From: an uncultured Clostridia bacterium
GTDB lineage: Bacteria > Bacillota > Clostridia > Oscillospirales > Ruminococcaceae
Assembly (NCBI GenBank): GCA_947389015.1
Contig: CANDVA010000003.1
Coordinates: 1-64,000, forward strand
DNA length: 64,000 bases
Reading direction: 5' to 3'
The notes under the pieces were generated by a model that had not been told where the DNA came from, searched no databases, and was given only the letters and a program-made list of their open reading frames with translations. Numbering within the stretch: the stretch's first letter is position 1; every line of letters starts with the position of its first letter. Below, one piece after another: positions 20,798 through 29,441 of the stretch. The translations under genes were made by a program, and so were the position numbers.

Positions 20798-20944
20798 CTA
20801 TATCAATCCTTTCGTAATTCGTAACAAATATATTGTTGCGGTATTGAGGGAAAATATTCCGCGAGAGGAGGGAAAATTTTTAGGTATTTTGCAGTGTAAA
20901 ATCACAATTTAGCGCAGAAACGCTATGACCAAAAAATTGGGATT

Positions 20945-21151
20945 CCAAAGGGACTGGTCCCTTTGGCGGGATGCAAGGGCAGAGCCCTTGCCGGGTTCGG
21001 GCAGAGCCCGAAATGCCGCGTAGCGGCAAAAACAAAAAAGCGCTAAAAGGGCTTGGGGAAAAACAAGAGTTTTTCCCCAAATCGGTGATTTTGCCTGTTG
21101 GCAAAATCACCGATAAATCACTTTTTTCTGCCGGTGGCAGAAAAAAGTGAT
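20945..21151. repeat. Array of seven consecutive perfect hairpins
   Basis: Seven self-complementary units follow almost without spacers: 20945-20966 (10-bp stem), 20973-20991 (8 bp), 20998-21010 (5 bp, loop AGA), 21014-21028 (TGCCGC/GCGGCA), 21053-21080 (12 bp), 21081-21114 (15 bp) and 21117-21151 (16 bp, ATCACTTTTTTCTGCC with loop GGT). The units differ in sequence, so this is not a CRISPR or simple tandem repeat. Loops are 2-4 nt and stems lengthen from the third unit to the last. It lies in the 508-bp space between the divergent adaptor gene and dacF, with no coding frame of its own. The last units could act as terminators only weakly, since T-runs are internal. Confidence 0.85.
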
Positions 21152-21305
21152 CCACGCTCCGATCAACACCCTGCTGATATAAATTCTGATTTACTATTAT
21201 TTAAAACGGATTTACGCTGCATGGACTTTTTACATATTTTTCCTTAGAGAATAGCACGACAGCTTTTGGAAAAACTAAATTTCAATAACGTCTAAGGAGA
21301 TTTTT

Positions 21306-29109: not shown

Positions 29110-29441
29110 CGGCGGTTTGTAAAAGAGTGCCGCCGTGGCGATGAAGTCGGAGGTTGCGCGAGCGTGAAACGCGTCCGCGGTAATTTCGACGGAGTATGTC
29201 CGGATTGAATTCGGGCGAAAAGTTTTCGGGACGTCGGTTCGTTCCCGATATGCCGTTAAAGTGTCCGAGAGAACTCGGGTAACTAACAGGTGTGTCGCGG
29301 AAAATGAAACACACGGCTCGGTGGATTTTTCAGAAAGCCTTCGCCGGCTATTTGTTCCCCCACTTGCGCAAAAGGAGGAACGAAAAGACAAGCGGAAAGT
29401 TACTCGTCCGCAAAACATCACGAAGAAAGGTTGAAAAATCA
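29110..29441 (+). promoter_or_regulatory. Long untranslated leader of the S10 operon
   Basis: About 330 nt lie between the predicted start of transcription and rpsJ. The leader has several GC-rich complementary segments (CGGCGG...CCGCCG near 29115-29135, GTGTGTCGCGG...ACACAC near 29291-29315) and no credible gene. An autogenous or attenuation control region is plausible, but no known r-protein motif is recognised. Confidence 0.45.

Follow-up and report, generated by a model that had tools for sequence, protein, structure and literature searches.

A probable MITE-like element with an interior of different perfect hairpins in an uncultured Clostridia bacterium

Bacterial MITEs are described as short elements with inverted-repeat ends and no transposase gene, present in dozens of copies, mostly intergenic, and predicted to give stable stem-loop transcripts (PMC10969869). 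The pneumococcal BOX, RUP and SPRITE repeats are likewise interspersed and stem-loop forming; BOX is modular, being built of boxA, a variable number of boxB and boxC, and IS630-Spn1 is the presumed mobiliser of RUP (PMC3049150). BrickBuilt of Porphyromonas gingivalis is reported as a MITE with a repeat-array interior, a minisatellite of like units (PMC4596501). REP/BIME and REPIN sequences are high-copy extragenic palindromes, single or grouped, in which REPs are given as 20-40 bp copies of a like palindrome (PMC3733652, PMC2817692, PMC3116915).

Here we analysed a 64-kb stretch of DNA from an uncultured Clostridia bacterium (called here the window) and the relatives of a hairpin array that it carries. 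The 296-bp unit containing this array is very probably a MITE-like, non-autonomous transposable element whose interior consists of different perfect hairpins. It has the traits of bacterial MITEs listed above, but its interior is a row of different perfect hairpins and no autonomous partner was found. As those repeats are described, and by description rather than by sequence, it is like BOX, RUP and SPRITE in being interspersed, modular and stem-loop forming; BOX, however, carries one boxB module in tandem whereas every hairpin of the present element is different. BrickBuilt, going by its description, is also a repeat-array MITE, with like units in place of different hairpins, and the published accounts of REP/BIME and REPIN share with our element the high-copy palindromes but not the seven unlike hairpins between inverted terminal repeats. 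A literature search, in which subscription journals are thinly covered, returned no paper on these arrays among the matches listed, which dealt with other repeats or with template switching.

The hairpin array and the element around it

The preliminary description had reported seven different perfect hairpins in a row between divergent genes. All seven were located, at 20945-21151 of the window (207 bp; stems of 6-16 bp, loops of 2-4 nt), and nowhere else in the 64 kb are such hairpins packed as densely. When perfect hairpins with a stem of at least 7 bp and a loop of 2-5 nt were counted, 6 of the 26 in the window fell in the array, and 155 of 220 bp lay inside such hairpins there compared with 48 in the next densest stretch, a difference of about threefold. 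The folding energy of the array was 11.8 standard deviations (+ strand) and 11.7 standard deviations (- strand) below that of dinucleotide shuffles, none of 200 being as stable. The shuffle folding energies and the hairpin density across the 64 kb rule out a chance cluster of hairpins. Clusters of at least four such hairpins were absent from 425,372 bases in 45 viral contig stretches, a control that is viral and not bacterial.

The features of the element are collected in Table 1. Because the terminal inverted repeats sit outside it, the interval first reported is too small and the true unit is the whole element. That each hairpin has its own sequence was borne out in that the stems are unlike, except that H2 and H3 have 11 bp in common (GGGCAGAGCCC). 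The genes on either side of the spacer are indeed divergent, one of the HlyD family (-) and the other for a D-Ala-D-Ala carboxypeptidase (+), but the gene-orientation counts given below make this no rule of the family. Three exclusions made from the first look at the sequence stood up: the direct repeats are merely 10-13 nt long and irregularly spaced, which does not describe a CRISPR; the stems within the array are unlike and not copies of one palindrome as in REP/BIME; and a terminator consensus scan found 3 sites in 2.5 kb where 3.0 were expected, with one terminator-like site in the array. Elsewhere in the window, positions 29133-29221 match the S10-Clostridia ribosomal protein leader slightly over the Rfam cut-off (37.2 vs 35.1 bits).

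Table 1. Features of the element, in window coordinates
Feature	Position	Strand	Remark
Whole element, 296 bp	20898..21193	+ (orientation H1 to H7)	paired ends, here and in other copies
Left terminal inverted repeat	20898..20911	+	two mismatches vs TAAATCAGAATTTA
Hairpin H1	20945..20966	+	stem 10 / loop 2
Hairpin H2	20973..20991	+	stem 8 / loop 3
Hairpin H3	20996..21012	+	stem 7 / loop 3
Hairpin H4, TGCCGC-GTA-GCGGCA	21014..21028	+	stem 6 / loop 3; read from sequence, also in computed fold
Core box GCGCTAAAAGGGC	21040..21052	+	adjoins H5; conserved in arrays across the genus
Hairpin H5	21053..21080	+	stem 12 / loop 4
Hairpin H6	21081..21114	+	stem 15 / loop 4; loop TGTT, the reverse complement of the usual AACA
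Hairpin H7	21117..21151	+	stem 16 / loop 3
Right terminal inverted repeat	21180..21193	-	exact TAAATCAGAATTTA

Copies, spread and mobility

The genome to which the window belongs (G000) is a draft of 2,909,330 bases in 49 contigs, on which the copy counts rest. Searched with the array, it contained matches at 29 places (E up to 1e-17), the window copy included and some cut by contig ends; eight places besides the window copy are 92-95% identical across 218-236 bases. Likeness between copies reaches past the array as far as TAAATCAGAATTTA at the left end and the reverse complement of TAAATCAGAATTTA at the right end, and the flanks bear no relation to one another from copy to copy. Allowing up to 2 mismatches, the TAAATCAGAATTTA end had 101 matches in G000 compared with 18 for a reversed control, and a stricter end pattern had 53 compared with 0, and 3 in all 60 other genomes searched. 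As estimated from match positions, about 23 of the 98 contig ends of G000 lie in such elements or their kin. Among 26 stretches examined, the paired ends enclosed 291-300 bp (n=12, one boundary, that of L012, being assumed), 318 bp (n=2), 372-399 bp (n=6) and 446 bp (n=1); L025 is without a clear left end and L070 (137 bp) is without an array. The longer variants have additional and different hairpins on the H1 side. The family shows three of the features by which MITEs are recognised, namely terminal inverted repeats, many dispersed copies (291-446 bp) and no transposase gene inside according to Pfam; a reading frame across the array had no Pfam match.

The same ends also enclose other interiors. 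A 368-bp element, called here L056-type (L056:1501-1868, G000:C16), has an unrelated interior with no hairpin array inside; G000 has it in full at L056 and L061 and in part at four contig ends, and its pattern matched 36 times in the relative G029, 15 times in G014, 7 times in G020 and 2 times in the own genome. In G029, L056-type stretches lie at the contig starts L400-L404 and L406 and at the contig ends L410 and L412. At L046:1154-1514 (G000:C7:85577-85937), 361 bp between two such ends hold an open frame of 103 aa, as if a gene had been picked up, and this small frame had no Pfam match. Several species of the genus carry in their spacers a third kind of short repeat, whose ends resemble CCGCACAATTATTG (L384:353-511, L304, L109).

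Related genomes answered the question of whether the array is unique or unconserved, and it is neither: of 150 genomes searched at the DNA level, 26 had matches, namely the own genome, 24 of the 42 others of the genus and one genome from another genus of the family. Matches longer than 200 bases were found only in G014 and G029, and most others span 33-100 bases and cover one or a few hairpins. The exact core pattern was present in 12 of 100 genomes, own included, all of the genus and with up to 43 copies in one; among the matches listed, the core-pattern records are uncultured Clostridia or Oscillospiraceae assemblies and one labelled uncultured Bacillus. G029 has arrays with other ends (GCAGCTAAAAAA), single-hairpin and double palindromic forms are also present, and double arrays of about 0.7 kb lie in CAMELR010000042.1 and in one further contig of that genome. 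A phage origin was rejected, with short phage matches only (E 0.8, 24 records), and so was a plasmid origin, with three weak plasmid matches only. The end pattern matched once each in 45 viral stretches, which we read as chance, and the sole viral match of the core pattern had no array in the stretch inspected. A small mobilisable plasmid of Bacillus altitudinis, NZ_CP040746.1, carries four perfect hairpins in 166 bp (L453 325-490); this cluster, weakly similar to the array, is possibly an unrelated parallel.

Nearly all copies in the own genome are intergenic or at gene ends; in L002 and L017 a called frame overlaps the element. Gene orientations were taken from codon-usage gene calls and not from a gene finder. 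The 25 own elements (22 arrays and 3 with other interiors) lie between divergent genes in 10 cases, tandem genes in 9 and convergent genes in 4, 2 being unassignable. For 92 arrays of the genus, own included, the counts were 44 tandem, 28 convergent and 17 divergent (3 unassignable), and for 178 control gene pairs 102, 25 and 51, respectively. As to location bias, proposed as a check, arrays of the genus are commoner between convergent genes than controls are; the own copies are about as often divergent as tandem. The genus-wide distribution fits avoidance of promoters as well as a role in termination.

The preliminary description had suggested a modular mobile repeat, and this agrees with the many copies, the terminal inverted repeats, the module variants and two empty sites. 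The joined flanks of 16 sites were searched in three close relatives, and in G029 DNA without the element bridges the sites of L007 and L003, as a check for empty sites had called for. At the L003 site the element of the own genome is preceded by TTTTTTTA and followed by TA, and G029 reads TTTTTTTACC; judged from the sequence of this junction, the single TA of the empty site is consistent with duplication of TA. At L007 the junction in G029 is too diverged to show a duplication, and the 22 usable end pairs taken together give no clear target-site duplication (the best z, 3.0, being for 2 bases situated two positions outside the ends). The element at L021 is inside the 3' end of a gene that continues in G014. 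The window site is not comparable as an empty site, the DNA upstream of the carboxypeptidase gene being different in G020 and G014. A rearrangement between L006 and L012, considered from the G029 and G014 flanks, was set aside as doubtful, one flank having a second, longer match (L406).

No autonomous partner was seen in the draft G000, in that no pair of TAAATCAGAATTTA ends lies more than about 450 bp apart. DDE_3 (IS630-type), the only transposase family searched, is absent from the own genome; it had matches in 4 of 61 genomes, above the cut-off in 1, and of five DDE_3 loci in relatives the three inspected had none of these ends.

Of 16 own sites queried in G029, 14 were readable, some on one side only (L004, L005, L006, L020, L025). 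Eleven of these 14 are occupied in G029, often with another interior: L009, L025 and L056 hold an array; L004, L021 and, on its left side, L018 hold a single hairpin; and L005, L006, L013, L020, L022 and, on its right side, L018 hold an L056-type element. L003 and L007 are empty, and neither family is at L012, where the third kind of short repeat is found. For the left end at L022 and the right end at L020 the first base is identical in position in both genomes, and the offset is no more than 2 bases for the right end at L022 and for an end at L013 and at L005; for L006 and L018 the end positions disagree between the own genome and G029. In G020 an L056-type stretch lies near the L018 flank, and no array was found in G020 or G014 at the L004, L005 and L018 sites read there. 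The H1 pattern had 67 matches in G029, single palindromes being counted twice. In a comparison over 20 kb of the window, G029 carries three additional stretches (165-200 bp) and one contig break bordered by L056-type matches at positions where the own genome has nothing, so the background of occupancy is not small. That the ends are long-lived sites whose contents (array, single hairpin or L056-type interior) are exchanged in place, which would make this an exchangeable cassette site and not only a jumping repeat, is a tentative reading that we consider rather unlikely. Either old insertions common to both species, with interiors since replaced, or strong hot spots of insertion would account for the shared sites.

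Two-sided stem changes and competing explanations

That structure rather than sequence is preserved was supported by stem changes on both sides across copies. In 24 arrays chosen for readability (12 own, 10 from G029, 2 from G014), 99.2% of cells pair and 20 of 68 pairs are changed on both sides; the covariation score is 0.195 compared with 0.079 for shuffles, none of 500 of which reached it. Further standard pair types were no more frequent than in shuffles (32 vs 32.7). It should be noted that, the arrays being related, their changes do not count as independent. H6 has 13 arm pairs and is perfect in 17 of 24 copies, H7 has 10 arm pairs and is perfect in 20 of 23, and across 159 arrays 200 of 269 distinct hairpins are perfect. 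The 69 stems with one mismatch carry G-T in 25 cases, A-C in 15 and others in 29, a distribution that does not decide for RNA. Loops were counted in 170 core regions, those occurring once being left out, and exact reverse complements of the usual loop were found for H5 (TCTT 2 vs AAGA 144), H6 (TGTT 2 vs AACA 22) and H1 (AA 1 vs TT 23); among the loops listed, no inverted loop of H7 or H2 was present. In the window H6 the inverted loop lies between arms identical to those of L004. Homogenisation of arms together with inversion of the spacer is a described footprint of template switching (PMC8604942, PMC8794818), although PMC8794818 calls its own evidence for stem maintenance by this route circumstantial. 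Since changes come in both arms of a stem at once and a few loops stand inverted, template switching is the most likely cause of the perfection of the stems, as read from this footprint.

The two-sided changes would also be expected of a functional RNA, or of an array of transcription terminators or attenuators, kept by the host for its folded transcript. The very stable fold, found on both strands, is also compatible with such a role, as are the excess of G-T over A-C and the position of genus arrays between convergent genes in 28 of 89 cases compared with 25 of 178 control pairs. We nevertheless hold this explanation to be distinctly unlikely: template switching gives paired changes without selection, the + and - strands fold equally well, the terminator scan was without excess, and the own copies are divergent as often as tandem (10 and 9 of 25). 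An RNA scaffold, another of the roles first suggested, was not upheld, no Rfam family reaching its cut-off and the small excess of G-T being not clearly above A-C. The candidate Clostridiales-2 RNA (RF02937) was rejected at 19.1 bits against a cut-off of 58.6, and in 20 related loci it had no match at E up to 0.01.

A spread without transposition, by recombination or gene conversion between spacers, would make the ends mere edges of a homologous stretch. The unclear target duplications and the shared G029 sites with other contents, suggestive of replacement in place, speak for it, but the ends are mutually inverted and also occur on elements of unrelated interior, the flanks differ between copies and two sites are empty in a relative, which leaves it highly improbable. 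That the array is an artefact of assembly is scarcely conceivable: although this is a draft genome with copies at the ends of many contigs, the same kind of array occurs in assemblies of other species, and misassembly yields neither two-sided stem changes nor paired ends.

Proposed history and meaning of the family

For the transposable element that we favour, the following history may be proposed. The interior array would predate the present element, because the genus also contains kindred arrays bounded by different ends, besides single-hairpin and double palindromic forms. The element would have been moved, probably by insertion into a TA dinucleotide as the single TA of one empty site suggests, by a transposase that recognises the TAAATCAGAATTTA ends and was not found in the searches. 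Copying of one arm from the other by template switching during DNA replication could then keep the hairpins perfect, with or without added selection, and copies would survive where the damage is smallest, between genes and at their ends.

The family also breaks the assemblies of its species, and its shared sites with different contents raise the question of how bacterial repeats turn over. Pairing stems with a changing sequence are usually taken as proof of a functional RNA. Here they belong to a dispersed family with no sign yet of RNA function, whose many copies allow two-sided changes and loop inversions to be tallied. The share of template switching in stem change thus becomes measurable, and the family offers a natural record of how perfect hairpins stay perfect.
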